Origin: Polytrichum commune
Lineage: Eukaryota > Streptophyta > Polytrichopsida > Polytrichales > Polytrichaceae
DNA: 64,000 bases
Direction of reading: 5' to 3'
Assembly (NCBI GenBank): GCA_950295325.1
Contig: OX485803.1
Span: 28,394,001-28,458,000 of the forward strand
The translations under genes and the position numbers were made by a program. Shown piece by piece: positions 3,143 through 23,870 of this stretch; the stretch's first letter is position 1; the number at the start of each line of letters is the position of its first letter. The notes beneath the pieces were generated by a model. It had not been told where the DNA came from and did no database searches. It saw nothing but the letters and a program-made list of their open reading frames with translations.

Positions 3143-4273
3143 CTAGAAACTCCACAGACTGGACTCCCACCGCGAGGTGCTAATACCTTCTTCATGATCC
3201 TCGGAGGAAGATGAATACGAGTCAGCTGCAGGGACCATGGAGACGTCAGCTGGAGGTGGCAAACACATTCCGTCGTAAAGACTTGCCATCACATTTGGCA
3301 TGTTAAAAATCATATCCTCGTCGACATAATCCACCTCCTGATGATGATGATGATGATGATATTGGCCTACTTTCGAACCTCCATCATCTAGTCCATCACC
3401 TTGTTTTGAAGTGAATGAATTCTCAGCCATATGATGATGACTTCGCTGCTGCAAGCTGATACTCCTCCCGTTAATGGTACTACATTGACCGACGATATTC
3501 TTCTGTTGTATCCTCTTAGTCTCTATTTCTGGTTCTTTGCTTGCAGTTGGACCTAAGGAGCTTCCCGAAACGCTCAAACTCTTGCCAATCCGGTGAGAAG
3601 TAGTTGCGGGCAAATCAGCAAGACCGACCACTAGTGGTTTAATGTCTTGCAGTTGATCCAACATTAATGTGACTGAATTGTTACCATATTGAGCTGGACA
3701 ACTACTGGATACAGAAGAAATTACTGGCTTGCAGTCCGCCGAGGTTGAGCTGTTCCATCCGGAGGTGTATACCTGCAAAGTATCTGCATTCCGAGCTGCT
3801 GACAGATGATGACGATGATGATGATGATGATGCAAACCTGAATTAGCTCCGGTAGCTTCAGATGATGCGGAGTAGCTTCTTTGGAGGGGGTTTCCTCGTG
3901 GTGATGACGATGATGATGTGGACATCAATACCCTGTTCGCAGCTTCGGTGGCAGCAGCCTGGATGGATTTGTCTGAAAGATCTGCAGGGCGTGGCAATGA
4001 GTGAGCGTAATCGGGGAAATTCAGATTTGCATTCGAGCCACGGAGAGCGAGGGCTGCTGAATCGTACGCTCTCGCTGCCATTTCGGCTGTGGGAAATGAG
4101 CCCAGCCAGATGCGAGATTTCTTCTTAGGTCGTCGAATTTCGGTCACCCAGATGCCCCATGGCCGTCTTCGGACACCGGTGTACACTGGGTGGCGGATGT
4201 CCCCCACTGGCTCGACGCTACTCTGAGTACATTGCCCTGAAGAGTTTGATGTTGAGGAATGATCGGTACTCAT
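3143..4273 (-). CDS. AP2/ERF-domain transcription factor, DREB-like
   Basis: This is a single-exon gene of 376 codons for a nuclear DNA-binding regulator. The AP2/ERF domain covers residues 30-88 ([50 protein letters not shown]). It is followed by the [20 protein letters not shown] stretch common to DREB/TINY proteins. Near the C-terminus [15 protein letters not shown] (322-336) resembles the C-terminal motif of DREB A-4 to A-6 proteins, and the last residues are LWSF, like the LWSY end of CBF proteins. Val at the DREB-diagnostic position 14 is kept, but the usual Glu at position 19 is Arg. Two histidine runs (148-156, 306-311) come from CAT/ATG triplet repeats. Known members bind DRE/CRT-type elements in stress responses; the exact target here is inference. 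The ATG at 4273 is the first in frame, directly before a conserved-looking Ser-rich N-terminus. Confidence 0.93.
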
Positions 4274-8285: not shown

Positions 8286-8844
8286 GCCTGCAGGCTGCCA
8301 TGTAACTTTGGAGGCTTGAGTGCCTGTCAAATGCGAAATCGTCCTCCCAAGAAAGTTTTTTTTAATTTTTTTTAATTTTTAAGTTTTTTTAACAAAGCTC
8401 TGGCAGGATCGTTTTTTGTAAGATTGTCACATTGAAGGCCATAGGACTTCATGCCCTTCACAATTTAATAATGAGAGGAAATAGTCTCATTCAAGTTGTG
8501 TTGTACTTTGAAGGATGTTAAATAACTGTCAAATGCGGAATTGTCCTTCAAAGGTCTTTTATTTTACAAAGTTATGGCAGTAGAATTTTTCACAAGTTTG
8601 GCGTCACAGTGAAGACCAACGCAAGTCATGCCCTTCCCAATTTTACAATGAGAGGAAATTGTCTCATTCAAGTTGTGTTGTACTTTGAAGGATGTTAAAT
8701 ATCTGTCAAATGCGGAATTGTCCTTCAAAGGTCTTCTCTTTTACAAAGTCATGGCAGTAGAATTTTTCACAAGTTTGGCGTCACAGTGAAGACCAACGCA
8801 AGTCATGCCCTTCCCAATTTTACAATGAGAGGAAATTGTCTCAT
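8286..8844 (+). repeat. ~180-bp satellite-like repeats, left block
   Basis: Three tandem units of about 180 bp share landmarks (ctgtcaaatgcg, gtccttcaaaggtc, tttttcacaagtttggcgtc, atgagaggaaattgtctcat). The last unit is cut after TCAT at 8841-8844, where the giant element begins. The same family resumes in the same orientation at 23346, so the two blocks were once continuous. Confidence 0.85.
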
Positions 8845-8872
8845 AACACTATATTCGTTAAATTGAGACTTT
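8845..8872 (+). repeat. Left terminal inverted repeat of the giant element
   Basis: These 28 bases are identical to the reverse complement of 23318-23345. The next base inward differs (T at 8873 against C implied by 23317), which sets the TIR length. Confidence 0.93.
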
Positions 8873-8984
8873 TTGGGCATTTTGAGACATTCACAAAAAT
8901 AAGAACAAGGATAAATGGAACACATATTGGAGAAAGTTGTAAGATGCGAACACTTTGAAGCAGGTGTTTAGACCAAGAACCCCA

Positions 8985-9262
8985 TATATAACTCATATTT
9001 GTGATGGTTTAGGGTGGGCAACCCAAACCTTAGACCAAATTGAAGGGGAAACCTTAAAACATTCATATTATTGCACACAAAATATTAGAGCTTGTACGAA
9101 TATGGTTTAGGTAGGGCAATCCAAACCATAGATCTTATTGAAGGGTTAATATGTTAACCAATATAATATGGCATACAAAATATTCCAAACTCATATTTGT
9201 GATGGTTTAGGTAGGGCAATCCAAACCTTAGACCATATGGAAGGGGAAATCATGTGACACTT
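8985..9262 (+). repeat. Subterminal tandem repeat of the giant element
   Basis: Three units of roughly 90-100 bp share gatggtttagg, ggcaa(c/t)ccaaacc and gaaggggaaa. Each has a near-palindromic core (ggtttagg...ccaaacc). Subterminal repeats near a TIR are often transposase-binding sites in plant transposons; that role is inference. Confidence 0.6.
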
Positions 9263-9392
9263 ATATTATTGCAAATAGAACATACAAAGTATGGCATGTA
9301 AAATGCATAGCATGCTAACACCTAAACATCCATTGGATAGTGCGACCCAAAATGTTCTTGCCTATGGCCCAAAACCCTACGCCTACTATGGC

Positions 9393-9680
9393 CTATCTAG
9401 CCTCGGAGAGTGCCTCTTTTTCTTTTGCCTCTTTTTCTTTTGCTGCGGCTTCTTTTGCTCGCATTGCTTCAACATTCCTGAAAATCTCCGCCCCGCGACT
9501 ATAGCCATTCTTGGGGTGACAGCCAACAATAACACATTTTGGATTCCGTCGGCCGCCCGAATTATACGACGAAGAATTCGAATACGATGAAGTGGACTGT
9601 CTTGCATTTCCGGTCATGGAGTAGAAACGCTCCAACTCGACGGACACACTAGCCCGCATAGGTTTACGGGTGGGAGCAAC
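9393..9680 (-). CDS. Predicted terminal exon, Lys/Glu/Ala-rich C-terminus
   Basis: An open exon of 96 codons ends in TAG at 9393. A good acceptor (GCGTTGCAG) precedes 9680, and joining in phase 0 to the exon ending at 9815 keeps the frame. The product has a Ser/Tyr-rich stretch (STSSYSNSSSY), a short NPKCVIVGCHPKNGY segment with two cysteines, and a charged, probably helical tail of AKEKEAKEKEA type. No family is recognised. It lies at the left end of the giant element, downstream of the HAD-like exon on the same strand. Confidence 0.5.
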   Translation of the reverse strand, partial: VAPTRKPMRASVSVELERFYSMTGNARQSTSSYSNSSSYNSGGRRNPKCVIVGCHPKNGYSRGAEIFRNVEAMRAKEAAAKEKEAKEKEALSEAR

Positions 9681-9814
9681 CTGCAACGCGTGAATGCAAG
9701 AACACACGTGTTAGTTTAGGGAGGAAGACCCAAACGTGTCACACGTTCATTTTTTTTAAGTGCGGGATGATTGTAATGTGCGGTTAACCATGTTTTGGGG
9801 GGGGGGGGGTTCAC
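9681..9814 (-). other. Predicted 134-bp phase-0 intron
   Basis: Donor GTGAAC at 9814 follows AAG and acceptor GCAG precedes 9680. A run of about 13 C (minus strand) lies just after the donor and is a likely slippage-prone tract. Without splicing the frame continues through this tract to a stop near 9716, so intron retention would give a different short end. Confidence 0.5.
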
Positions 9815-10168
9815 CTTGTCACCGGGGGCGTTCCCGTCGGAGTTGGCGAGGAGGGGCAAGGCGTCCCGCAAAGGAATAGGAAGGGTTCCACTCTTCGTTG
9901 GCCGAGCGTCCATCCGCAGCCGCCGTTGAGGTGTAATATGGCCGCCGGGTCGAGAGGGGGACGTCCGGACGCATTTGCGATTTATGCCCTTGAGCGGCGA
10001 CGGGGACGCAGATCGCCGGAAGATTTGCTTGGGTGGGGGGCTATCGACGACGCCGGCGTCAATAGGCTCCTTGGAGTAGTCAATGGTTGACGCTGCGTCG
10101 TAAACAGTCTCGTAGAAGAAGCTCCCCAAGTTTGACTCGCTCACGATGTCAATCGAGGGCTCCAAACG
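9815..10168 (-). CDS. Predicted exon, unknown protein in giant element
   Basis: An open phase-0 exon of 118 codons lies between an acceptor (GGCTCCAG) before 10168 and the donor at 9814. The product is acidic at first (SIDIVSESNLGSFFYETVYD), then Ser/Pro/Arg-rich (FRRSASPSPLKG, TSPSRPGG). No initiating ATG is seen at its 5' end, so an upstream exon is missing from the model. It could be the 3' part of the HAD-like gene, but the HAD exon already ends in its own stop at 10306, or a separate gene. No known family was recognised. Confidence 0.45.
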
Positions 10169-10269
10169 CTGGAGCCAAAATTAAAACAAAACAAAACCCA
10201 AGGGAGGAGGGTTTGATAGAGCGCGTGAAAATCAAGATACATATGAAGCATATATTACACAAAGTGGGC

Positions 10270-10302
10270 GGGCACACACACACACATACAAACACACATA
10301 GT
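10270..10302. repeat. CA-rich microsatellite
   Basis: A (CA)n-like run with interruptions lies between the HAD-like stop codon and the next downstream exon. Confidence 0.7.
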
Positions 10303-10305
10303 GCC

Positions 10306-11118
10306 TCAAATGAGCTTGTTGAATTTCGTGTGTGAGAACAACTCTCTGTACAAATGGTCTCGTGGATCCAAGTATCTCTCGCCTATCGGATTGTTCCTAA
10401 CAAAATTGTTTACAGGTAGCCCGCTACCCCAGAGCGCCTGGAGGTATTTACTAAGGTCTAACAAAAATCGGTCCCGGACCTTCTCGACCGTCCATGTAGG
10501 GCAAACTATGAGGTTGGCCGTCGGGTTCAACATGTTCTTTGCGGCGTTGTCGTCCACCATGAGCGTGTTCTCGCGGGTGGGGCGGACGTCGTAGGGGACG
10601 CCTATCAAGGACGGACGTTGGTCCCAAAAAATGGGCTTCAAGACCTTGAGATATTGGGGGGAAGCGGGGTTGTTTGGTTTTTTGACGACTTTGCCGTCTG
10701 GTGTGTACAATATTCTACAGGCTTCTTGTGCTAGGACCATGCAGGGGGGCTCGATGCCCTTGAAGATGAACTCCACGACGGCATTGGTGTTCTCGGCCTT
10801 CATGGAGCTCCACACGACCACCCACCATCGTTGTTGGGCGATCTGGAGGAAGGTCCGAAGCCACGGGCGGAGGTGAACTAGTTTGCTCTTTATGAACGTG
10901 GGCGGCCCGTCGTAATTAGCGTCCTCGGGCTTGCAAAAGGGCACCGTGGGGGTCCTAGGGCAATGAACGCATTGGACGAGGACCCCGTTCAGGTCTAACA
11001 CCAGGAATCGTTTCTTCGGCAGCGGGGGCGGGGCGGGTAAAACCGGGGGTGCCGCCGCGCTGCCCTCTCCGCTCCTTGGAGAAGAGCGTCGGGGAGCCGC
11101 TACGCTATGCTCCGAGCC
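10306..11118 (-). CDS. FCP1/NIF-like HAD phosphatase domain exon
   Basis: The open exon has 270 sense codons. An acceptor (TCCGCAG) precedes 11118, and the stop TGA is at 10306-10308. After a Pro/Ala/Ser-rich linker comes KKRFLVLDLNGVLVQ (about residues 35-49), matching HAD motif I of FCP1/SCP phosphatases (DxDxT). The second Asp is Asn and the Thr is Val. VVVWSSM fits motif II, K in the LKPIFW region motif III, and LMVDDNAAK motif IV with both Asp kept. FCP1-family enzymes dephosphorylate protein Ser/Thr, for example the RNA polymerase II CTD. Loss of the second motif-I Asp predicts weak or no activity. Phase 0 at 11118 would allow direct splicing from the exon ending at 11622, making it the C-terminal domain of the ParB/methylase-like protein; it may equally be its own gene with an unseen 5' exon. 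Confidence 0.72.
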   Translation of the reverse strand, partial: GSEHSVAAPRRSSPRSGEGSAAAPPVLPAPPPLPKKRFLVLDLNGVLVQCVHCPRTPTVPFCKPEDANYDGPPTFIKSKLVHLRPWLRTFLQIAQQRWWVVVWSSMKAENTNAVVEFIFKGIEPPCMVLAQEACRILYTPDGKVVKKPNNPASPQYLKVLKPIFWDQRPSLIGVPYDVRPTRENTLMVDDNAAKNMLNPTANLIVCPTWTVEKVRDRFLLDLSKYLQALWGSGLPVNNFVRNNPIGERYLDPRDHLYRELFSHTKFNKLI

Positions 11119-11579
11119 CTGCGGATACGAGCGAGAGAAAACGGGGGCGACTTATGTCATGCTATGTCCAAACGAAGCATTAAGGAAACGAGCGTTCTCG
11201 GTGCAAACACAAAAGCATTTGATTCATTTTGGAGGGGGTGCAACAAGGGATACAAGGGATACAAGAGCATACAAAATACATTCAAACACAATATACAAGT
11301 ATATAGGAGTCAAAAATGGTGATTATATTAAATACAATGCTCTATGTACATCTTGATTGGGGGAGCCACGTTGAACGATGCGTTCAAACTAGCCTACTTC
11401 TACATCTAGAAAAAATTGAAGAGACGGGCCGCCGTGATGAAGACTTCGTCGCAAAGCCGGGGGTAGGTGGACGAACGAATGGTCGCTGGGGGTGACGAAG
11501 GGCGCGAGTGCCGGGGGGGGGCCTAAGTTCGTCCTAGCTAGGGGACACGACCAAGGCAAGAAGTCAAAGACCCAGGAAG

Positions 11580-11599
11580 TTTGGGTCGACCGACCCAAA
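11580..11599. repeat. 20-bp palindrome, single copy
   Basis: TTTGGGTCGACCGACCCAAA lies just 3' of the predicted donor at 11621 in transcript orientation. Its position near an intron 5' end matches the other introns of this tract. Confidence 0.85.
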
Positions 11600-11621
11600 C
11601 TGAGTGGGGTCAGTGCATTAC

Positions 11622-13100
11622 CTCGCCTTGGTCGTGCCTTGACGACGTTGATGCCGGCATCGCGTGCGCTACCCCACCTCTGTCACCGCCGCCTCCGACG
11701 ACGACGTCAGCCGCAACCTGCTCCTGCAAAGGCTGACTGTCAAGCCTTTGTCCCAACCCAACCTTCGCATGCGCATCATGCATTGGTTCATCGACTGGGT
11801 TAGGAGTAGAGGTATCACCAGGCCCTTGCGGGCCTTCAACATCTAGCATAGGCTCGTCGACCGGGGTCTGATCAGGGACGGGGTTTGGGTCGGCCGACCC
11901 AAACCCTGCTGCTTGGCGAGGCTCGCTCTGCGACGCTGCAACGTCGGCACTGTTTGGGTCGGACGACCCAAACATGTGGGGGTCGTCCCGCTGGTGGTGT
12001 GGGGGCAAGAGGATGGGAGGCCGGAGCGGCGGGGGTGCCAACGAGCTGGACGCTCCGGGGACGCGCCAAAGGTTTGGGTCATCCACCTGCTGCACAGGCG
12101 CGTAAGGACGGGCGTGCGGCTGCAGCAAATCCGCGAAGCTGAAGGAATGCTCCAACGCCGGCCGCGGGCGGATATCCTGTGGAGGGAAGCCTGCGGGCAA
12201 GTGAGGGAATGAACTCGGGGGAGCCATCACCAATCCCTGCGCCAGCATGCCCTGGATCACTTGCGTGATGAGCTCCGCTTGGGACGGAGTTTGGGACATC
12301 GCCCTTTGCCGCTCCTGCTCCAACAGGAGAGCCCTCAACTCCGCGACTTCGTTGCGGACCGAGGGTTCCTCGGCGGCAGCCCTCTGCAGTCGCACACGCT
12401 GCTCCTCGTCTCGGAGCATTTTTGCATTCGCCTCCTCCACGGTGAGGACCTCCGGTTTCACCCTCACATTCCCGGCGAACGCTTTGGGGGAGGCAGGATC
12501 AGACCTCAGCTTCTTGGCGAGTTCCATGTCGTCCTCGTCCTCGGAGCTTATTGCGATCGTCTCCTCCACCGCATAGTCCCCGTACAGCTTCTTCCCCTTC
12601 ATCCTTCTACGCTCCCTGAAGGTGGCCGTCGCGTCCCTCGAGTACATATCCTTGGCGTCGTCCACCGTCAACGCGGGCACCAGCCTGCTCTGCGGCGTGG
12701 CAGCCCGCATGGCCTTCTTCCGCTGAGGGGCCTCGGATTCTTGAGTGAATCCTGTTGCCCCTTCCTCCACCTCCCCCTCCACTTTCTCTGCTTCCTCCTC
12801 CGCCTCCTCCTCGTCTTCCTCCCCCTCCTCCCCAACCTCGCCACCTACTCCCATAGACGGATTGCCCGGATGCAACCCGATGAGCGGCTCTGGCAATTGA
12901 ACGGGGGCCCGCATGGCGAATTCACCCGGGTTGATTCGCCTCGCAATATCCAAAGGATTCTCGCCCCCCTCGACGATCTCTTCGACGTAGGATCCGGGTA
13001 TCCAGTCGAGGATGTCCATTCTCTTGGCCAGCGCCTTTTGGGTCCTGTAGAATTGAACATCGGCATCCTCCACATAGGAGTAGATGTTCAACCCAGACAT
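11622..13100 (-). CDS. Long exon: acidic linker and coiled-coil region
   Basis: This exon has 493 codons in phase 0, from an acceptor (TTGTGCAG) before 13100 to a donor GAG/GTAATG at 11622. If the donor is unused the frame stops at 11610. The start (MSGLNIYSYVEDADVQFYRTQKALAKRMDILDW) looks globular. Then come an acidic Glu/Gly tract (GEEGEEDEEEAEEE, about residues 90-115), basic segments, SSEDEDDMELA, and a probable coiled coil (EEANAKMLRDEEQRVRLQRA ... ELRALLLEQERQRA). A long Pro-rich tail carries two FGSxDPN heptapeptides (FGSSDPN, FGSADPN) encoded by the 20-bp palindrome. No catalytic domain is recognised. It links the methylase-like and HAD-like regions. Confidence 0.72.
11884..11903. repeat. 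20-bp palindrome inside an exon (FGSADPN)
   Basis: TTTGGGTCGGCCGACCCAAA, fully palindromic, is read on the minus strand as F-G-S-A-D-P-N in the long exon. Confidence 0.9.
11953..11972. repeat. 20-bp palindrome inside an exon (FGSSDPN)
   Basis: TTTGGGTCGGACGACCCAAA is read on the minus strand as F-G-S-S-D-P-N. It lies 69 bp from its neighbour at 11884, again a multiple of three. Confidence 0.9.
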
Positions 13101-13240
13101 CTGCACAATCAAAATCAATACTATTAGTAACACCAAATGAACAAATAATGGAAAATGACTTCCAAAACAAAATAAGAATAGTTAGTTTGGGTCGTTCGAC
13201 CCAAACCGTTCGTATAGGGACTTCTGGGTTTTCTGCTTAC
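13101..13240 (-). other. 140-bp phase-0 intron containing the palindrome
   Basis: Donor ATG/GTAAGC at 13240 and acceptor TTGTGCAG/ATG at 13101 flank frames that join in phase 0. A palindrome TTTGGGTCGTTCGACCCAAA lies at 13186-13205. Confidence 0.78.
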
Positions 13241-13843
13241 CATGGCTGCAAAAATCGGTTTGGACCCCCCGAAAACGTTGAAGATGCAGTCCCCTCTCTT
13301 CGTGAGGGTCCTCATCATCCGCAGGTAGAACTCCATGCGCAGCTCATCCGCGGGGTAGTTGGCGTACTTCGCCTCGTCATACAAGCTCCTGCTGGTACCC
13401 AACCCTTCTTGGACTTGGAAGAGCTTTTCCATCCTGGCTATGGGATGGTTTGGCACCTTAAGCAGCTCAGCTTTGTACACGAAGTACAAGCACAGCACGT
13501 TGACGATCTTCGTCTTCTTGTCTTTTAGCGTGCTGTACACCCCCTCCGCCGGTGCAGCAACGTAGTGAGATTTCGAGACGGCATACTCCGGCTGCAATTT
13601 GCGCACGATCTCGTAAACCTGCTCTGCCCTTCTGTCCTCGACAATCCAGAGCCAGACGTCGACCTCCCTGAATTTGGGGCTGGCGTAGTCCACGAACTTC
13701 GACAAGAAAGGATCGTAAAAATGGGTGCTCATAGTCCCCTCGAATGAGGCTCCAGGGATGTTCCTGAAGTCTATCATTCCGAAGGGGAAGCGGTCCCCGG
13801 CTCTAGTCCTGATCGCCTTCCTTGACTCAGAACCCGGCCAACC
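13241..13843 (-). CDS. DNA-methyltransferase-like domain, degenerate
   Basis: This is the 3' part of a phase-0 exon (14572-13241) after an in-frame TAG; 201 codons. Near the end, GDCIFNVFGGSKPIFAAM aligns in pattern with the AdoMet-binding motif I of N6/N4 DNA methylases (GDxVxDxFxGSGTT). Upstream, KIVNVLCLYFVYK resembles the strand segment before the target-recognition region of the same family. The key motif-I Asp is Asn and GSGT is GSKP. The catalytic DPPY/W motif that should lie near the start (RFPFGMIDFRNIPGA) is absent. I read it as a methylase fold that has lost catalysis. The order ParB-like then methylase is the order of known bacterial and phage ParB-methylase fusions. The family call rests on pattern, not alignment. 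Confidence 0.55.
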
Positions 13844-14572
13844 CTAGATCCTGAGAGATTCGACAGTGACCATGTTGAATTGCGCATCGCCTTCGAAACT
13901 GACGATCTTCTTCTCCTTTATGAAGTTGGAGAAGGCCCGCACTGAGTGTTCGGGAAGCGCCCGGTTCCTCCCCCCCTTCACGAGCTTGGATCTGAGGAAG
14001 TCGTCTCCCGCCTCCCTCATGAGTGCCGCCATGGACGCACTGGTAAACTTATATTCGGCTTTGAAGGCCCTCCAGTGCGCCTCGTCGACCTCTCCGTCCA
14101 CGATGAGCTTCTTCTCTGGCACAAGCTTGTGCAGCTCCTGGACGATGGTCGTCTTCTTCTTCCTGTTCTCCGTCCATTCCTTCATTGTGTAGCATGAAGG
14201 GACGAAGATCTTGGGTTTGGTGAAGACGATCTTAGGGTGGACCCAGCATCTCTTCGTCGTCGTCTCCACGTGTAGGATGTGGGACGCCGCTTTTCCCATC
14301 TCTGTCTCGGAGAGACCTTGAAGCGCTCTGAAGAACTCCCTCACCAGAGGCTTCATTTGCTTGAAGCGCCCAGTCTGGTTGAAGAGCATGCCGGTGTCGG
14401 GGTCGATGAGGTCACCCGTCTCGTGTTTTTCAAAAACACTCTTCCATCTTGCCCATACGGAATCGGACGTTGTGATCAAATAGATTTCTCCTCTCAGCTC
14501 GTTATACTTTTTCTGCTTGTGGCTAGCATTGTCGATCGAGGAGAATTTATTGATCATTTGATATTTGAAGTC
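13844..14572 (-). CDS. Exon part between ParB-like and methylase-like domains
   Basis: An acceptor (CTGTGCAG) before 14572 opens this phase-0 exon. 242 sense codons run to an in-frame TAG at 13844-13846, after which the same frame stays open to the donor at 13240. The product is Lys-rich and probably mostly helical (HKQKKYNEL, RWKSVFEKHETG, YTMKEWTENRKKKTT) with no recognised domain. The frame identity on both sides of the TAG suggests a nonsense change in what was one exon; a separate short protein is the alternative. Confidence 0.65.
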   Translation of the reverse strand, partial: DFKYQMINKFSSIDNASHKQKKYNELRGEIYLITTSDSVWARWKSVFEKHETGDLIDPDTGMLFNQTGRFKQMKPLVREFFRALQGLSETEMGKAASHILHVETTTKRCWVHPKIVFTKPKIFVPSCYTMKEWTENRKKKTTIVQELHKLVPEKKLIVDGEVDEAHWRAFKAEYKFTSASMAALMREAGDDFLRSKLVKGGRNRALPEHSVRAFSNFIKEKKIVSFEGDAQFNMVTVESLRI

Positions 14573-14892
14573 CTGCACAGGAAGACATTAGCACATGTTA
14601 GACAACACATAATGGAAAAACAAATGCAACAGCAGTTTGGGTCGAACGACCCAAACTATGAACCTGGCGAAAACAACATAACAATTTCAGAGTTTGGGTC
14701 GACCGACCCAAATTATGAACCTGGGGAAAATATCAAAACAATTTCAGAGTTTGGGTCGACCGACCCAAATTATGAAACTGGCGAAGACAACAAAACAATT
14801 TCAGAGTTTGGGTCGACCGACCCAAACTATGAACCTGGCGATGACAACAAAACAATGTAGGAGTTTGGGTCGATCAACCCAAACATACTCAC
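14573..14892 (-). other. 320-bp phase-0 intron filled by a palindrome array
   Basis: The donor GAG/GTGAGT at 14892 is near consensus and the acceptor CTGTGCAG ends at 14573. Both flanking exons are in phase 0 (TGG GAG / GAC TTC). Most of the intron is the five-copy 57-bp array. Confidence 0.82.
14636..14883. repeat. 57-bp-period array of five 20-bp palindromes
   Basis: Copies start at 14636, 14693, 14750, 14807 and 14864, exactly 57 bp apart. Central dinucleotides are AA, AC, AC, AC and AT; the last copy has one arm change (GATCAACC). Spacers share tatgaac(c)tggcgaa...aacaatttcagag. Fifty-seven is 19 codons, so frames stay open through it. Confidence 0.93.
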
Positions 14893-15531
14893 CTCCCATT
14901 TGGGGTTCTTGTCTTTAGCATTCTCCCTTTCCTTGGGAGGCCTTCCATAAAACTCCCACACCTCCCTCGAGGCCATGATGTTTCTGATCCACGATGCCTG
15001 ATAGGCCCTCTTTTTGTTCCCCATGTTGAAGAACCTGGAGATGTCGCTGAGGACCGTCTCGTTGTCCGACCAAACCACCAAAGCCTTCCAAACTTTTAGC
15101 TTCTCCTTCTGGTTGTTCGGGTCGTCCCACTCGGTCATCAGCTGGATTTTTTTCGAGGCCTCGACATTGTGTTGCCCGTCAATCAGCCAGAAGTCTCCTT
15201 TAGAGATTGCCAGCCACATCTCAGGCGTCGGCATTCTTTTCAGCCCTTGTGGCATGACAACAATTGTCTGCCTGTCGTCCTTGAACTGCCCGCCCAAGAT
15301 TTGAGCGACCATCCAGTCGACGTAGGCGTCCTCCTTGGCTCGGACGCACTTCTCTGGTGGCGCAAGGTGGCACTGCGCAATGTTGACCTCGAATTTGAAG
15401 TCCCTGCCCATGAAGAAGCAGTGCAGGCATTTTGTCTCGAAGTTGTTGTTTATTTTTTGTATTTCGCCTGCATCCACCTCTTGGCCAAGCTTCGGCATCC
15501 GGAGCTCCGGGGAAACAGGCTCGTCAGTCAT
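14893..15531 (-). CDS. ParB/DGQHR-like domain exon region
   Basis: The frame holds 213 codons from ATG 15531 to the splice donor at 14892. The core GDFWLIDGQHNVEASKKI (residues 112-129) matches the signature of the ParB/sulfiredoxin-like and DGQHR families (..viDGqHR..A). In bacterial ParB this region belongs to the N-terminal nucleotide-binding/nuclease-like domain. The preceding strand QTIVVMPQG fits the pattern. Arg of DGQHR is Asn. Cys-rich KCLHCFFMGRDF (34-45) lies N-terminal. No helix-turn-helix of chromosomal ParB is evident, so specific DNA binding would need another domain. The region upstream (15541-16305) is in the same frame, separated only by TAG and nine further bases. A bacterial or phage origin followed by intron gain is inference. 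Confidence 0.66.
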
Positions 15532-15540
15532 CCCCGATGA

Positions 15541-16305
15541 CTATCTTCCCCTCTTGGAAGGGGTCGTCTGACGGATTCCTGATGGCGTTGGCGTCTCGCT
15601 GTCAGCCGGCGTTGTTGTAGTGCTCGTCCGTCTCGAGTCTGCAGGGACCGCCCGCGGTTTCCTCACAGTTTGTGGTCTTGAGGACCCTGCGCCTTCTTCC
15701 GTCGTTGCCTTCCGCCTCACAGGCTGCTGCGTCTTGGGTTTGCTTTGCAGCGCCTTGTTGAGAACCGTGATAGCCTGTTTTAACTTCATGAACCTGCTCG
15801 CAACCTTCGTGTTCGTTACACTGCCATCTATGAATATGGCCTCCGGTTTTATGGTTTTAGGGTCGACGCAAGTCTCCTTGGCGTACAGGGGGTCGAAGGG
15901 CTCGGAGAACTGGTGCATGAACATGTGGACGTTCTGCACGGCGGAGTTCTCCAGTATGACATCTACGTAGTCCCCGAGAGACTGGACGGACGCAACCTCC
16001 CATCCCGTCAGCGTTGCCCAGGTGTGCTGCTCGTGGGTCCCCACCTTCACCACGAATAGCAGCTTGAACATGGATGCCTTCACCACCTGAACGGACCATG
16101 TCAGAACGACGCCATCTTTTGGGACGTAAGAATCGTCCTGTGGAGTTTCATACTCCTGCCAAAGGTGGTCTGGCGCGAGCATGAACCACCTTTCACCTGC
16201 GCTTGGCGCGGAGGAAGAGGGGAAGAAAAAGAGAGAAAGAAAAAAGAGGAGGGGAGAGAAGGAGAGAGCGGAAGGGGTCACCCTAAACCCTCGAATCCGG
16301 GCCAT
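15541..16305 (-). CDS. N-terminal region of the ParB/methylase-like gene
   Basis: An open frame of 254 codons ends in TAG, in frame with the ParB-like part that restarts at ATG 15531. The first ATG (16305) lies before a pyrimidine-rich tract that translates as a false signal-peptide-like FFLSLFFF run. The ATG at 16182 (MLAPDHLWQEYE) is a better start, or 16205 or so could be a splice acceptor after the CT tract. The body looks globular (VLTWSVQVVKASMFKLLFVVK, FMHQFSEPFDPLY) and ends in a basic Ser/Thr/Pro tail (TPSKRGR). No family is recognised. It is either the N-terminal domain of the ParB-like protein or a separate short product. Confidence 0.6.
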   Translation of the reverse strand: MARIRGFRVTPSALSFSPLLFFLSLFFFPSSSAPSAGERWFMLAPDHLWQEYETPQDDSYVPKDGVVLTWSVQVVKASMFKLLFVVKVGTHEQHTWATLTGWEVASVQSLGDYVDVILENSAVQNVHMFMHQFSEPFDPLYAKETCVDPKTIKPEAIFIDGSVTNTKVASRFMKLKQAITVLNKALQSKPKTQQPVRRKATTEEGAGSSRPQTVRKPRAVPADSRRTSTTTTPADSETPTPSGIRQTTPSKRGR

Positions 16306-16337
16306 TAGATTGCGCCGGGCCCATCAACGGCTCAGAA

Positions 16338-16420
16338 GCCTCGCGGGCCAACACCTTGCCAGGTGTCGACACCTCCTTGGTTTAGGTGGTTGCCCGCGAG
16401 GCTTGTGGTGTTGACACCTG
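16338..16420. promoter_or_regulatory. Inverted repeats upstream of the minus-strand gene
   Basis: GCCTCGCGGGC (16338-16348) is repeated inverted at 16392-16402. Between them lies the palindrome AGGTGTCGACACCT (16361-16374), and GGTGTTGACACC follows at 16409-16420. The cluster lies just upstream of the first ATG, at the GC-rich edge of the coding tract, where a promoter would be expected. A regulatory role is inference. Confidence 0.5.
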
Positions 16421-16439
16421 CCACCCTAGGGAGATTGCC

Positions 16440-18655
16440 TTCCTAGTTGTCCTTGCCCCTAGGTGCGGGACATAGGAGGGCCGGCGCCTCTCTTGGCCGC
16501 CCGGCCCCGGCCTTCTAACCCGCTATTCATTAGCGGCAATTCAATACCACTCAAAAACCTACGTGGACTAAGGTATTCCACAAAATTAACACCATCACCA
16601 ACTCATATTTTAATGGTGTTCAATTGAATGATCACCCGTTGGAATTGATAACATCGTAGAATGTAGCCATTATCGTTTTGGTGTATGAATAATGTAATTT
16701 ATGGAATCATATGAGAGTGTTACAAAGTCTAAGAGGAGTAAGTCATAATTATATTGCAATCCACAAAGGCAATTACACGGTGCAATAATATAAATATGGT
16801 AACCATTCACATGGTTAACAGTTTAGGATTATGTATTGTAATTTATATGATGGTTGTTGGTAGAGGACAATGCTCTAGTCTATAATGGATACCCTAACAA
16901 GTAGCATTAGAGTGATCATTAATATATGTACTTAGAAGTTCACATTTGAAGTACATGGGAGAAACAAATGATTACAAATGTATCTACTGCAACCCCATGG
17001 AGTTCACATATCATATGAAGTCATTTAAACATTCAGTTTGATGTTTGATGATGCCTGAACCCTAAACCCTAAACCCTAAACCTTAAACAACACAAACCAT
17101 AACTGGATGGCACATAGGTCAAATGACATGGGCCTTGGTGCTTGTAGTTTCCAATACAAATGTATATTGTCATCACAACATCCTAATTCACAAACGTGAA
17201 AGATGGATGTGTGGTTTTTCACGAATGAACGCACTAAAGGAAATAAACGATATTGTGCTCACAAGTAGGTGATACAATATTAACCTATAACCTTGTCACC
17301 TGGTAAGAAGAGCATAAGAACTAGATTATAATGGATAGGATGTTGTTCATGTTAACATGTTATTTGGAATAGTGAAATATTATATATTAATTTAAGGTAG
17401 ATTTCATGTTGTGAATGATATGAGGACATACCTTTTGAACTTTGCATGTTTTGCTCACACACATTGGTAGAGTTCAAGGGACTTCACGATAAGTTCAAAC
17501 ATCCTTGAAAGATTGAACGTGCCAAATGTCATTTGTGGTTTAGGGTTCCATTAATGACTTCCACATAGGTACTAGGTTATTGTCACACTTGGAGCCTTGA
17601 GGATGAAGCAATATTGGGTGCACACATTACAACACAACATATGTTCTTTTAATTAGCGGAAATTGAAAGTTGGCCAAATTATTCAAGTTTGTCATGGCAT
17701 TAATTATTTGTTTTCAAAATATAAGTCCTCATGTGAGAGTCTAAATAATAGCATTAACTATTATATTTAGTGACTTTTAGTATATGAAGTTTTATAATAC
17801 ATGCACATCTTTTGTCAATATATTGTTTGAAATATACCATAATGTTTGACTACAAGTAGAGTAAAACCCCTTAATAGATATAATCTTACATATTGTCATA
17901 GGATTATTGGTATTCAGTGTATGCGTTCATATGTAGTGTATCAAAATCTTTATATCCTTTTTAGTTATATGATAGTTAGTGTTTGATACACTTAAAACGA
18001 ACGCATACACTTCCTATTACTAACCCTATGAGAGTAAGTAACATTAAATGTAAACTCAAACACTAAATATCCACTATGGTGATATATGGAAGTTACATAT
18101 TATAGGGATTTAGTATTAGTAAGGATGTGAGAAAAAAATACAACAATGATAAAAGGAGAAAGGAGATGGCAATAGGGAAGGTGGTGGTGTATTCATGTAT
18201 AAAACTAATTATGAAAGAGTTGAAGAATAGTGTTGACCAAGTTAGGGTGGTAACAACTTTAAATATATGTTGAATTATTCATTTGGTGGTTGGGGCAACG
18301 AAGAGCCAAGCTAAATATACATTCTCTATTATTGACAAGAAGCGGGAAATTGAGTCAGAAGGTTTGAATTAACGTCCAAAGGAGACCAGGTGGGAAAGGC
18401 ATCCAAAGAGGATGCCCAAAGCGGAGGCGGGTAGTATAAAGAGCCCAACCCCCCCAAACGCTGGTTCTTTCTTTCATGTCCCAATCCTGAGATTGCTGCA
18501 AGCTCTCTAAGTTGGAGCTGTAATACACGGTTTGTATACGCTTCCATTCATGAGCAGCTAATTACAACAAGCATCTATGAGTTCAGTTGTCCCAAATAGG
18601 TTATAAATAGATTAATAGAGCATCACCCGAATAAATAGGCGGATTTTGCGGAATT
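16440..18655. other. AT-rich central spacer of the giant element
   Basis: No gene is seen between the divergent coding tracts. It contains a telomere-like run (cctaaaccctaaaccctaaacc, 17059-17080) and a fold-back repeat at about 17887-18036. GC content drops sharply at about 16.55 kb compared with the minus-strand coding tract. Confidence 0.55.
17887..18036. repeat. Fold-back repeat in the giant element
   Basis: agtgtatgcgttc...gtgtatcaaa (about 17928-17957) is repeated inverted as tttgatacac...gaacgcatacact (about 17982-18011), with weaker pairing outward (gtcatagg / ccctatgag). It resembles a small nested MITE; no clear target duplication was found. Confidence 0.5.
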
Positions 18656-18656
18656 G

Positions 18657-19556
18657 TTTGGGTCGGTCGACCCAAACCCAGCCTTACAGTGTGGGTGCTC
18701 TCTGTATTGAGCCAGAACCCATCCTACCTCAAGGTTTGGGTCGATCGACCCAAACCCAGCCCTACAGTGTGGGTGCTCACTGTTGTGAGCCTGAACCCAT
18801 CCTGCCTCATGGTTTGGGTCGATCAACCCAAACCCAGCCCTACAATGTGGGTGCTCACTATTGTGAGCCTGAACCCATCCTGCCTCATGGTTTGGGTCGA
18901 TCGACCCAAACCCAGCCCTACAATGTGGGTGCTCACTATTGTGAGCCTGAACCCATCCTGCCTCATGGTTTGGGTCGGTCGACCCAAACCCAGCCTTACA
19001 GTGTGGGTGCTCTCTGTTGTGAGCCTGAACCCATCCTGCCTCAAGGTTTGGATCGATCGACCCAAACCCAGCCCTACAGTGTGGGTGCTCACTGTTGTGA
19101 GCCTGAACCCATCCTGCCTCATGGTTTGGGTCGATCGACCCAAACCTAGCCCTACAGTGTGGCTGCTCACTGTTGTGAGCCTGAACCCATCCTGCAAAAA
19201 GGTTTGGGTCGCTCGACCCAAACCCAGCCCCTAAGTGTGGATGCTGTCTGTAGTGACCCTAAACCCATCCTGCCAAAAGGTTTGGGTCGCTCGACCCAAA
19301 CCCAGCCTTCTAAGTGTGGGTGCTCCCTGTCGTGACCCTAAACCCATCCTGCCAAAAGGTTTGGGTCGCTCGACCCAAACCCAGCCCCTAAGTGTGGATG
19401 TTGTCTGTAGTGAGCCTGAACCCATCCTGCCAGAAGGTTTGGGTCGCTCGACCCAAACCCAGCGCCTAAGTGTGGGTGCTCTCTGTATTGAGCCTGAACC
19501 CATCCTCCCAAAATGTTTGGGTCGCTTGACCCAAACCCAGCCTCTAAGTGTGGTTG
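18657..19556 (+). repeat. 78-bp-period array of twelve 20-bp palindromes
   Basis: Palindromes start at 18657, 18735, 18813, 18891, 18969, 19047, 19125, 19203, 19281, 19360, 19438 and 19516. The period is 78 bp (one step of 79). Copies 1-7 have GATC/GGTC centres, copies 8-12 mostly GCTC, and spacers split the same way (gcctcatgg versus gccaaaagg), so the array grew from two founder types. Spacers share cccagcc, gtgtgggtgctc and gaacccatcct. Because 78 is 26 codons, several frames are open through the array on both strands; I do not consider them genes. It ends about 190 bp before the start of the plus-strand gene. Confidence 0.94.
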
Positions 19557-19749
19557 GGATCTGGATGCCGGTGTGGCCACTGGCCTTTCGAAACCTTTAC
19601 AAATCCAATGGCATAGCAGTCATATGAACTTGTATGAGCACTGAGTATTTGCAATTTTGTTTATATATGATGGTTTTTTTGTTCTTCGATTTGAACCTAC
19701 AATTTTTGTGATTTTTTGACAATGTTCAATGTTCATGTGTGTAGGCAGA

Positions 19750-21193
19750 ATGGATGGGTTTAGTGAAATAGGGGATTGGTCATCTGATGACATGGCCACT
19801 TGGCCATCTGCATCTGATGATGACCTAGACATTGTCGGGGAGGCTACTATGGCTGACAGTGCGGATGAAGATCATTTGGATTTACCTTCGTCTTCCGTAC
19901 CGCAGTGTCCCATTGTTGAATGTACGGGACTTTCAAGGGCTTCGTGGGTGAATTTGGAGGTGATACTTCTTAACGATAGTGGAGTTGTTGTGGCGGAGGG
20001 GATTTGCCGTAACACCCATCCGCAAGATTGCATTGATGAAAACCCGCTTGGCACCGAGGACGTTGGGGTTGTCATATTGGAGTCGGTCGTTCATTCCGAG
20101 GTGGATCCCACTCATAGGTTCTCCCTCCGCAGGTGGCCATTGAGGAATGTTACAATTGATGGACTTAGCTTGCGTGAACATGAGCAACGACACATGCAAA
20201 TCGAAAATGAGGTGCAATCAAACATGCGGCCGCGCAAAGGTCAAAGAAAGTACGATACATTGGCACGTCCTGCTCCGTCTGCAACTGATTGTAAACGTCA
20301 AAGGTTGCTCGGGGAGGAGTCCATTAGAGAAGTTGCCACAAATGATTGTTATGTGCATCGTTGTTGCCAATTGTTTCCAAGGGATAAATTGAAGGCCATC
20401 CGCGAAGAAATGTGGCTTAGAGATTTCCGTCTAAGATCCACAAGAAAACTTGATGTCCATAGGGCGATACATGTGAATGGGACTGGTCACAAGGTCATCA
20501 CCATTGAAAGCATAGACGTGTGTTGTAAGGCATGGTACACCATTCACGGTGTGTCGAAAGCGGACTTTTATAGACAAGCTGCTTATGCCAAGGAAGGCCG
20601 CCGGTCCCGTCACCATGGTAACGTGGGTTTAAAGAAGCCTAGGGAAGCAACAAGGCAAGCAATGGCCACTCTAGCAACCATCATTGTCCCTCTTGCCGAT
20701 GCAATGCCGCACAAAACACGCACACTCACAACCGGTGAAAAGGTTGTGGAGAAAGTTATTCCCACAGGCACAAAATGGAAAGACATATTGTTGGACGTTA
20801 ATGCAGTTGGCGAGAAGATTGGGTTGGAGCCAATTTCATTGTCAAAATTGAGTGCAATCAAGAAACAAAACTTTAGCGAATACATTACAAAAAGACGAGG
20901 GGACAAATTTGTCAGGTGCTCTAATTGCGAGAAGTTGAAGCGCCTCCGGGATGCACACACGATGGGCACCGAGTCATATGCAGCGCATCAATTGAACTAT
21001 TTTAAGCACGTAAACATGCAAGAGGCACACCGTAATGATTACTACACAAATAGAGCTTTGTCCATCTCCAGGCCCTTGGAGGTTCTTACGGTCATCCATG
21101 ACAAAATGGACCATGCCAAAACAGCCTCCCCATGTTTTGCAAATCGAATCAAGGCCACGGATGGGTTTTTCAAGTTGCCTGTATCGGTTACAG
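19750..21193 (+). CDS. DUF7869-like transposon protein, exon 1
   Basis: ATG at 19750 is the likely start; an in-frame ATG at 19729 precedes a possible acceptor (tgtgtgtag, 19736-19744). The N-terminus is acidic (DDDLDIVGEA, DSADEDHLDL). A basic middle part (NMRPRKGQRKYD, RCCQLFPRDKLKAIREEMW) contains paired cysteines (RCSNCEKLKRLRDA), a possible zinc-binding site. The C-terminal segment (IHDKMDHAKTASPCF, DGFFKLPVSVTG) leads directly into the domain in exon 2. The donor G/GTGAAC at 21194 is in phase 1. From memory of the family this is the layout of DUF7869-type proteins, which occur in many copies in plants. As the only transposase-like gene in the element it is the best candidate for the mobilising enzyme. 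Confidence 0.75.
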
Positions 21194-21327
21194 GTGAACT
21201 TCGAAACAATGTCATAACATACCCTAAATGTTGTGGTTTTTTATTCCGTGATGTACTGGAGAACATAGATTCCTTCATAATGGTTTATTCATACATAGAT
21301 GCTAATCACGTTGGGTTGGCATTGCAG
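21194..21327 (+). other. 134-bp phase-1 intron of the DUF7869-like gene
   Basis: GTGAAC donor and GGCATTGCAG acceptor remove 134 bp. Splicing rebuilds a Gly codon (G + GA) and joins PVSVTG to MIAHGHGD, the expected uninterrupted family text. Without splicing the frame stops at 21331-21333. Confidence 0.85.
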
Positions 21328-22814
21328 GAATGATTGCACATGGACACGGTGATGTCAAATTTGCTCATTATGCTCTTGATTTGTATCCAGCGGATTCAAA
21401 CCACACGATAGGATCATTTGCAAGGCTTTTATGTGATTTAGAGAAACCACCAGCCTATTCTTCAGGATTGTTATTTGAGAACACGGGTTCAACACCTTTA
21501 TATGAAGCGGTGTTGGATGGAAAAGATGTATGCTTGCATTCGTTGCCCGAGCCACCCAATAAACCCGTGATTGCCAAGAAGTTGCCTCCAACTTTGCGTG
21601 TCCAATTGGACAATTGTGCCAAGGACAATAAAAGCAGATATGTATTTGCATATTGGTCGTTGTTGGTTGCGAAAGGCATTTTCAAGGAGGTTTTTGTGTC
21701 CTTCTTATTGGTAGGCCACACGCACGATGATATTGATGCATCTTTTGGGCGGTGGAGCATGAAGTTGCGGGAGGAGGATTTTTCTACAATCCCATTATTG
21801 ATGAAGTCGTACATAGATTTGGAGAACGTTCCCGTCATCCCCCATATGATTGAGGAGGTGTCAGACTTCAAGGCATTTATAGAACCTTATATTCGAAGTG
21901 GAGCTCACCGATTGATCGGGCATACGAAGGCACAACAATTCCGCTTCTATATGCGTGACGATGGTGTCCCGGCCATGCAATACAAGTTGTTGTGCACGTC
22001 ACAAGACTGGAGCCCGCCGGAGGGTCTTCTTGTGTGGCGCGTGGATGCGGATGGAAAGACCATGTTACCGGATGGGGAGCCTAGGCCTTGCAAGCCAATA
22101 GCCATGAAGAATTTGGAGGATATTTTGAAAGGTATATCACGCTTCATACAATATTGGGAGAGTTTGAAAATAGCGGATGTTGGCGGATCATGTTGGCATC
22201 GTTATGGGAGTTGGATACATTATTGGACACGTGTTCGTGCCGCCTTGGCAGACCTCCACCAAGATAGCCCTCATACTTTGAGGCATGGATTTTGGCCACA
22301 AACACGAGTCGATGTACAAGCTTTGGAGCCTAGTCTTTTAGGAAATGGAGAGGTTCGAGAGGAGTTTGATGTGGACGACCATTACGTGGGGCCTGCTAGT
22401 AGTCGTCCCCCACCATCTTTCCGCATTGCAGTGGATTGTCATGAAGGTTATATGCTCATTTTGCGTCCTGGAGACGAGACATATGCGAAGCCAGTGTAGG
22501 TGGCAAGAGCTTTGTCCAATCCCAATTTTGTAACTTCCAGCCCTCATTTTCGACAAATACAAGTGGAGTACTATCGACCGACAGCAAGGAATGAAGATGT
22601 GATTCGGCATTATACAGGCTGGGATACAAACCCTAACTTTCGGTGGAAGGTGGATTCTGAGCACGGTCCATCTTGGGTAGATACAGATTCCATATTCATA
22701 GCATGGAAACCACGGAAACACCATAGTGGATCAGTGTCCATCCCTCAAAAGTACATAACTTTTGCAAAAGACAACCTTGCTCGGATTGCACAAGAAGCAA
22801 CCCACGTTGAATGA
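21328..22814 (+). CDS. DUF7869-like transposon protein, exon 2, with in-frame TAG
   Basis: This exon encodes the conserved domain. Counting from Met at 21330, VQLDNCAKDNKSRYVF (91-106) and LLVGHTHDDIDASFGRWS (127-144) are the strongest family marks; their acidic residues are candidates for a nuclease-like active site, which is inference. EVSDFKAFIEPYI, GHTKAQQFRFY and MQYKLLCTSQDW follow. TAG at 22497-22499 interrupts the frame between YAKPV and VARALSNPN, after which 104 more codons continue (YYRPTARNEDVIRHYTGWD, FRWKVD, WVDTD) to a stop at 22812-22814. The family usually has a Trp or similar residue there, so TGG to TAG is the simplest explanation. As it stands the copy makes a truncated protein unless read through. 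Confidence 0.75.
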
Positions 22815-23317
22815 GAAGTTGGTAGGATTGTGTTAGCATGATTATAGTTTAATACGTAATTATAGCAATATAAATTACACATATGTGTGCTCTTCAAAAT
22901 TGGGGCAGAGTTTGGGTAGAACTTACGAATACTATATTGTTTGGAGTTGGATGAATATCCATTTACTATATTTCAAAAAAAATTGAAGTTCATCTTATTA
23001 TTATGTTTGGGACTATATTCTCGAATGAAGAAATATGCATTTATTACATGCACTTTGTATGTTGCAATGTCTATATTCTATTGAGCATGCTAATAATAGA
23101 AATCATTTTATATATATTTTTGGGTGAAACTTGTTTGGAGTGCTCTACCCAATGTGTTTTTGTTGATGAAGTTGGTGTCGAGTGCTCTACCATATGTGCT
23201 TATGTCCGCACATCATAGATTTGGGATATTAGAACATATAATATAATTGAGATTGTTGACAATATAGTTTCGGGCCTCTTCAAGTTCTTTGATCCATATA
23301 TTAATTTGAAACTAGAG
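22815..23317. other. Right subterminal region of the giant element
   Basis: No gene is seen. A duplicated phrase (gag tgctctacc..atgtg, 23137-23195) and AT-rich DNA lead to the right TIR. The tandem repeats of the left subterminal region are not obvious here. Confidence 0.5.
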
Positions 23318-23345
23318 AAAGTCTCAATTTAACGAATATAGTGTT
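23318..23345 (-). repeat. Right terminal inverted repeat of the giant element
   Basis: Exact inverse of 8845-8872, followed directly by TCAT and the resumed satellite unit (tcaagccatgttgtactttgaagg). Confidence 0.93.
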
Positions 23346-23870
23346 TCATTCAAGCCATGTTGTACTTTGAAGGCTTCAATGTCTGTCAAATGCAAAATTG
23401 TCCTTCAAAGGTCTTCTCTTTTACAAAGTTATGGCAATAGAATTTTTCACAAGTCTAGCGTCATAGTGAAGACCAAAGCAAGGCCCAATTTTACAATGAG
23501 AGGAAATTGTCACATTCTAGCCATGTTGTACTTTGAAGGCTTCAATGTCTATCAAATGCAAAGTTGTCCTTCAAAGGTCTTCTCTTTTACAAAGTTATGA
23601 CAATAGAATTTTTCACAAGTCTAGCGTCACAGTGAAGGCCAACGCAAGTCATGCCCTTCCCAATTCTATAATGAAAGGAAAATATCTTATTAAAGCCGTG
23701 TTATTACTTTGAGGGCTTCAATGCCTATCAAATGCAAATTGTCCTTCAAAGGTCTCTTTTTATAACATATGTTATTTAGGTTTCCCACAAGAGTGTCATT
23801 GTAGTGAAGTCTAACAGAATTCGTGACCTTCACAACTTTACAATGAGAGGAATTGTCGCAAACAAGCAGA
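23346..23870 (+). repeat. ~180-bp satellite-like repeats, right block
   Basis: About three diverged units in the same orientation as 8286-8844 share gtccttcaaaggtct, tttttcacaagtctagcgtc and atgagagga. The first unit completes the one cut at 8844. Confidence 0.82.

Follow-up and report, generated by a model that had tools for sequence, protein, structure and literature searches.

A giant moss transposon family bears arrays of a private palindrome, candidate sites for its own ParB-like/methylase-like protein

We analyzed a 64,000-nucleotide stretch of the Polytrichum commune genome (C1:28394001-28458000, hereafter the window; the searched genome comprised 407.8 Mb in 64 contigs, the large ones among them, C1-C7, suggesting n = 7) and found that positions 8845-23345 form a complete cut-and-paste transposon with terminal inverted repeats (TIRs), one copy of an abundant ~17-kb family that we call family A. 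Its most informative feature was absent from an earlier first-pass annotation: arrays of a 22-base palindrome, GTTTGGGTCG-NN-CGACCCAAAC, with two ~10-bp arms (20 recognition bases) and a free 2-bp centre. Sequence comparison showed that two related families with the same DUF7869 transposase domain, B and D, carry different palindromes of the same geometry (~10-bp arms, 2-bp centre). We tentatively propose that the palindromes are family-specific sites of an element-encoded anti-silencing or self-marking factor like VANC, the most likely candidate being a ParB-like/methylase-like protein predicted on the strand opposite to the transposase.

A scan of the window at ≤2 mismatches identified 21 palindrome sites, all of them inside the element, and none in 100 shuffles; genome-wide there were 9231 exact sites. 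Family A copies were read end to end for the window and five other loci (C5, E7.84, E28.96, E2.1 and E27.5). These six elements had 15-35 exact sites each (155 in total), in inferred introns, in exon 3 of the ParB-like/methylase-like gene and in the space between the transcription units. At 0 to 7 mismatches the six elements held 155, 34, 6, 2, 15, 14, 17 and 34 sites, against a shuffled expectation of 0, 0, 0, 0, 0.1, 0.3, 2.8 and 14.7; the shuffle preserves dinucleotides only roughly, and this spectrum is a fairer view of arm conservation than a set gathered at ≤3 mismatches. In a set of the latter kind, whose choice favours conserved arms, 157 distinct sites had 96-100% one base at the arm positions, at most 57% in the flanks and a free centre. 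Array unit lengths varied between copies (such as 36, 40, 57, 64, 73-85 and 78 bp), spacers drifted and some sites stood singly. Among 100 listed of the 9231 exact sites, 61 lay between paired exact A TIRs, 16 lay <16 kb from a single exact TIR and 23 were in stretches of a second type of transposon, family C (see below).

The palindromes in exon 3 allowed constraint on DNA to be compared with constraint on protein. Where the compared codons encode the same residue, the third base differed at 0/12, 0/14 and 0/12 positions within the palindromes in three comparisons, relative to 132/335, 142/332 and 137/351 outside them (p of 0.0028, 0.0005 and 0.003, respectively); the comparisons have sequences in common and do not count as independent. 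In E2.1, changes at the centre of an exon 3 palindrome altered the amino acid. The lack of third-base change in the palindromes, together with centre changes that do alter the protein, indicates that the constraint appears to act on the DNA.

Family B (C1:48.45 Mb) had the gene order of family A and is a diverged sister family. Its proteins matched those of A in the phosphatase (31.6% identity, 3e-20), the transposase (39% and 49%; 1e-95 and 2e-72) and the methylase-like exon (25.5%, 1e-13), while tblastn found no match for exon 1, whose ParB-like part aligned with that of A only by profile comparison (probability 47%, E of 2e-4). The B TIR, ATGGGGATATTAACTAAAATGAGAC, was partly similar to that of A, and among 32 listed ends we found one exact-ended +/- pair, 108 kb apart, with the 4-bp duplication CAAA. 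The B palindrome, CACGGGTG-NN-CACCCGTG, occurred 18 times within the 29.7 kb read and at 953 exact sites in the genome. Family D (L033 and L034) is a third DUF7869 family (8.9e-54 in L034). Its palindrome, GGTGAGGCA-NN-TGCCTCACC, was found at 90 places at ≤3 mismatches in these two loci, in dense 59-61-bp arrays, and at 155 exact sites genome-wide. Opposite-strand frames were also present in D, and one of them aligned with a combined A and B profile of the ParB region with an hhalign probability of 89% (E of 2e-6), relative to 11% for A alone and 9% for B alone. Because the palindrome is fixed within a family, differs between families, keeps a free centre and constant geometry, and occurs in arrays, inferred introns and an exon, we infer that it is read by a dimeric sequence-specific DNA-binding protein.

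Family C (L010/L017 at C1:2151.96-2164.29 kb, L009/L016 and L032) was taken as a Mutator-like element (MULE). A 10-bp duplication was present in 3/3 copies read at both ends, a fourth copy was read at its right end only, and a match to the SWIM domain stayed below cut-off. This family had its own DGNHR ParB-like gene and a methylase-like gene (PHROG DNA methyltransferases, 5e-5; phage adenine methylases, 7e-3), and it carried palindrome A, some sites of which lie between frames that resemble two exons of the transposase. A relative of family C, termed C2 (L021, L022 and L023), had a ParB-like gene ~40% identical to that of C and kilobases of tandem repeats.

The ends of the window element were two 28-nt TIRs that were 100% complementary and were flanked by TCAT on both sides. 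Satellite units of 177/166 bp lay on either side of the element, and when the flanks were joined with one copy of the target site duplication (TSD), they equalled the adjacent left unit at 177/192 aligned columns, the next unit at 153/196 and the right-hand unit at 170/199, which identifies an empty site. A genome-wide search with the 28-mer at ≤3 mismatches found 1029 forward and 1031 reverse ends, and a reversed-sequence control found 0. We then searched for the TIR plus 11 flank bases (the first not G), which matched 616 ends, 100 of them listed. Among these 100, an identical 4-bp repeat flanked 27/30 neighbouring +/- pairs <60 kb apart, the three failing pairs being kept in the count, and 4-bp agreement in a mispaired-end control was 4/870. 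The repeat extended to 5 bp in 0/30 pairs, and 25 different, AT-rich duplications occurred among the 27 pairs. Base C often stood directly outside the 4-bp target (50/100 listed ends). The 27 pairs spanned 15.5-18.4 kb in 18 cases, 4.8 kb in one and 22.7-42.9 kb in eight, which presumably contain nested insertions. All five further copies read end to end had perfect ends and a 4-bp TSD (CTAT, GTAA, GAAG, ATAA and TCAT), and 9/15 DUF7869 matches on C1 that ended at profile position 191, the family A type, had an exact TIR <2.4 kb away on the 3' side. TIRs common to many copies, duplications of fixed length that vary from copy to copy and an empty site are together what characterizes a TIR DNA transposon. 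These results agree with the first-pass annotation, which had described perfect 28-bp repeats, a TCAT duplication, an empty site in the adjacent satellite and an unusually large plant TIR transposon with a DUF7869 gene. The refutation that it proposed, other copies of the genes lacking these ends, was not borne out by the five further copies.

The DUF7869 assignment of the family A transposase is certain, the match in the window being above the Pfam cut-off. The transposase is best read as two exons encoding roughly 1,000 residues, with the frame break between them as an intron, since the homologous family B sequence runs continuously through this point (SIAGMIAHGHSD). Putative splice sites in E7.84 were ACAG|GTGAG (donor) and TTGCAG|GA (acceptor). 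A frameshift was rejected, as the overlap fits an intron and the joined sense stands unspliced in B. The motifs DKMD/DGMD, DNC..NK and GHxHxDxD were found in the transposases of families A, B and D, and they look like a DDE-type active site.

On the opposite strand, the left half of the element holds a predicted three-exon protein (splice sites inferred), then a phosphatase, then two short putative exons. The first exon of the three-exon protein carries a ParB-like motif, the second closes with a methylase-like motif and the third is partly acidic. Both labels are motif-level, and they draw on the sequences WLIDGQHxVEAS and GDCIFNVFGGxKP, on the matching gene order of family B and on a published precedent. 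For ParB the evidence was a DGQH/NGQH motif, and a PDB profile search gave no ParB match. No Pfam, NCBIfam or PHROG match better than E 0.028 was obtained with the A and B proteins, so that the ParB-like and methylase-like domains of the first-pass annotation stand as motifs and not as library matches. The methylase-like exon has a motif-I-like loop, altered at its glycines in A and B (NVFGGxKP and NICGGNK). Methylase activity of the A protein is doubtful, as we saw no DPPY-type motif by eye. Searches of solved structures gave no useful match; a cytochrome structure at 3.3e-5 had 0 passing stretches and was taken as spurious. Viral contigs scanned with the methylase-like exon yielded 65 pattern matches, none of them a relative. 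The phosphatase match to the NIF/HAD profile was above the Pfam cut-off, and TIGR02251 matched the L003 copy at 2.1e-8, below its own cut-off. The HAD-like domain noted earlier was therefore confirmed by the profile, and the gene is of the eukaryotic NIF/dullard-like type, not prokaryote-like as had been suggested.

The same gene set was present in 6/6 end-to-end A copies (in E27.5 with exon 2 largely and exon 3 partly lost) and in family B. Incidental gene capture was rejected on this ground, and what had been called cargo is present as a regular part of the family. The window copy is a decayed one: premature stops interrupt exons 1 and 2 as well as the transposase, and it is 2.1 kb shorter than C5, the nearest relative read (16,599 bp, TSD TCAT); for these reasons it is probably immobile by itself. 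A single stop interrupted exon 1 in C5 and exon 3 in E7.84, and in E28.96 both exon 2 and exon 3 contained stops. E2.1 combined an exon 1 stop with breaks in exon 2 and in the first transposase exon. E27.5 had a deletion across exons 2-3, a broken phosphatase frame and a transposase stop. Each family A gene was open in at least one copy. A protein search with exon 2 gave 1231 first-look candidates, of which the 95 best-scoring were scored; all were ≥79% identical and 68/95 had no stop, an open share biased upward by this choice.

Comparisons between subfamilies showed, at the sequence level, purifying selection on the extra genes. In the ParB/methylase exons the ratio of nonsynonymous to synonymous divergence (dN/dS) was 0.03-0.10, with a dS of 1.3-3.7 where it could be computed (exon 1 of two pairs gave no defined value); the phosphatase had ratios of 0.12-0.21 and the transposase ratios of 0.12-0.28. 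Copies that were almost the same, most of them compared at dS <0.03, gave noisy and little informative ratios (0.10-2.1, one undefined). Between C5 and E7.84, dS was 0.042 in transposase exon 2, 0.147 in transposase exon 1 and 0.124 in the phosphatase, relative to a saturated 2.6-3.7 in ParB/methylase exons 2 and 3. Given this contrast, the elements look like mosaics that exchange their middle module.

On the reading we tentatively prefer, the giant element would move by cut and paste with its spliced DUF7869 transposase, and a dimeric DNA-binding protein, most likely the element's own ParB-like/methylase-like product, would read the palindrome. The bound protein would load onto the arrays and either shield the element from host silencing or mark it, as VANC does for VANDAL. 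The phosphatase may, more speculatively, assist transcription or chromatin opening. Arrays would expand by tandem duplication while selection preserves the arms. An extension that we hold with less assurance is that each family has a ParB-like/methylase-like factor matched to its private palindrome, of the common geometry and placed in introns, exons and promoters, a lock-and-key self-recognition for escape from silencing, that modules have been swapped between elements, and that the MULE acquired the lock of A and either uses its own key or rides free. Several observations weigh against our proposal. The ParB-like domains of A and C were not demonstrably homologous (hhalign probability 0.4-0.6%) despite their common palindrome, and neither palindrome A nor B, the two that were sought, was found in C2, which also speaks against a universal rule. 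In family A the ParB-like and methylase labels are motif-level, and the DPPY/NPPY catalytic motif was not seen by eye in the methylase-like exon of A or B. Each of the six A copies read had at least one interrupted frame, unlike an autonomous copy. The 157-site set was selected for its likeness to the palindrome, and gene conversion could alternatively keep the exon palindromes alike.

If the palindromes were instead binding sites of the transposase serving transposition, like the internal or subterminal repeats of CACTA and hAT elements, family-specific sites would be expected to track the DUF7869 families, as they do in A, B and D, and a degenerate relative of the palindrome does occur in the subterminal 98-bp repeats. 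Most sites are central, however, in inferred introns and exon 3, and a MULE with an unrelated transposase bears the same palindrome. An internally deleted 4.8-kb copy (L031, C1:42393157-42397936) has perfect TIRs and a CACT duplication, and no palindrome was found in it at ≤3 mismatches. Since this site-less copy retains its ends and duplication, the palindromes are probably dispensable for transposition, although the deletion could post-date the insertion. We consider transposase sites improbable. Passive, functionless minisatellites spread by slippage would account for tandem arrays with regular periods, but we disfavour them as very improbable: the 20 arm bases are identical across different unit lengths and drifting spacers, some sites are single, and the exon 3 sites lack synonymous change in all three comparisons.

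The occurrence of palindrome A in both DUF7869 family A and MULE family C would also follow if it bound a host factor (an insulator, architectural or transcription factor) put to use by several transposons independently of one another, with another task for the ParB-like protein. This is unlikely, as this genome's families B and D have other sequences of like geometry, and no plain host site was seen among the 100 listed of 9231 A sites, 16 of which were assigned by proximity to a single TIR. It is rather unlikely, too, that the element's own DNA is marked by N6-adenine or N4-cytosine methylation with the ParB-like/methylase-like protein as the active enzyme. Such a role has been suggested for elements of Ectocarpus and of green and red algae (PMC12477816), and the MULE C version has the methyltransferase matches given above; the altered glycine loop in A and B and the failure to see DPPY/NPPY by eye argue the other way. 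Our preferred reading, anti-silencing or self-marking by an element-encoded factor, has parallels in known systems. VANDALs are MULE-type elements, and VANC is not known to be related to the family A protein. VANDAL/VANC is an anti-silencing system of Arabidopsis (PMC5735166, PMC10398659). The motifs targeted by VANC are short, form tandem arrays in introns and upstream regions, and change together with the family (PMC5735166). Family A likewise has internal arrays of a family-specific motif, some of them in inferred introns, and supposedly an element-encoded protein that reads it; the VANC21 motif YAGTATTAY, unlike palindrome A, is no 22-bp palindrome.

Among the closest known systems is Sola1-1_Ec32 of Ectocarpus, a giant transposon of 21.5 kb with a ParB/DNA-methyltransferase accessory gene (1104 residues) opposite to the transposase; its authors proposed that such accessory proteins act on the very transposon that encodes them, by binding and modifying it (PMC12477816). 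Family A is similarly a giant transposon whose ParB-like/methylase-like accessory protein is transcribed opposite to the transposase. It differs in its plant host, an added NIF-type phosphatase and the family-specific palindrome arrays. Fungal DNA transposons carrying TET/JBP show that a DNA-modification gene can occur in several transposon superfamilies; their enzyme is a different one, and cognate palindromes are unmentioned in the portion of that report available (PMC12730594).

Sola1 elements have 4-bp AT-rich target duplications. So do Sola2 elements (PMC3627910), and a Physcomitrella Sola1 is among the plant superfamilies in Table 1 of PMC9033089, so the earlier statement that the ends lie outside the standard plant superfamilies was too strong. 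Family A would fit Sola by its 4-bp AT-rich TSD and its presence in a moss; the transposase domain found in it was DUF7869 only. CACTA/EnSpm ends begin CACTA and have a 3-bp TSD; membership of A was rejected, as its ends begin AACACTATA and its TSD is 4 bp. MULEs have 8-11 bp TSDs and a MULE transposase, which the 4-bp TSD and DUF7869 of family A do not fit and which family C fits better.

ParB-methylase genes in giant algal transposons, one of them a Sola1, are thus already known, and in the part of that paper available they appear as possible self-binding, self-modifying factors with no target site named (PMC12477816). The string "palindrom" is absent from its main text. In the literature searched, under the terms used and as far as the texts were available, this was the sole recognised report of a ParB-methylase transposon gene, and we found no mention of cognate palindromes, the phosphatase or land-plant ParB-methylase elements; no paper on DUF7869 was found. 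What looks new is that transposon families carry palindromes of their own, alike in geometry. With >10,000 exact sites (9231 A, 953 B and 155 D) and many open gene copies, the question of the target becomes directly testable in a plant genome, and the findings suggest that two unrelated transposon superfamilies contain a module resembling an anti-silencing one. The features of the window copy are collected in Table 1.

Table 1. Features of the family A copy in the window (window coordinates)
Feature	Position	Strand	Basis or remark
Left TCAT target duplication	8841..8844		flank reading and empty-site alignment
Left TIR, 28 bp, perfect	8845..8872	+	inverted-repeat pair; genome-wide counts
Subterminal 98-bp tandem repeats	8990..9249		hold the degenerate palindrome relative (such as GGTTTAGGTAGGGCAATCCAAACC); repeat analysis
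Two putative exons, no known domain	9393-9707, 9716-10165	-	open reading frames; similar open frames in some other copies
NIF/HAD-type (dullard-like) phosphatase gene, open frame	10306..11151	-	PF03031, 1.2e-13
Palindrome GTTTGGGTCG-NN-CGACCCAAAC directly after exon 3	11579..11600		pattern scan
Exon 3 of ParB-like/methylase-like gene, with two in-frame palindromes	11610..13100	-	open reading frames, copy comparison
Palindrome within exon 3	11883..11904		pattern scan
Palindrome within exon 3	11952..11973		pattern scan
Palindrome in inferred intron 2	13185..13206		splice sites inferred from sequence
Methylase-like exon 2 with motif GDCIFNVFGGSKP and a single premature stop	13241..14569	-	open reading frames, copy comparison
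Array of 5 palindromes, 57-bp period, inferred intron 1	14635..14884		tandem-repeat and pattern scan
Exon 1, ParB-like motif WLIDGQHNVEAS, one in-frame stop	14893..16197	-	open reading frames, copy comparison
Array of 12 palindromes, 78-bp period, between divergent genes	18656..19536		tandem-repeat and pattern scan
Transposase exon 1, up to ..KLPVSVTG	19750..21195	+	splice junction inferred on the E7.84 copy and the unspliced family B homologue
Transposase exon 2 with DUF7869 (MIAHGHGD.. DNCAKDNKS.. GHTHDDIDASFGR), premature stop 22497-22499	21328..22811	+	PF25273, 4.6e-41
Right TIR	23318..23345	-	inverted-repeat pair
Right TCAT copy	23346..23349		flank reading and empty-site alignment

The element also contained an interstitial plant-type telomere repeat, (CCTAAAC)5, at window positions 17054-17088. 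Elsewhere in the window, and in line with a plant source, a gene with an AP2 domain (PF00847, 6e-15) was located at 3146-4270 on the minus strand.

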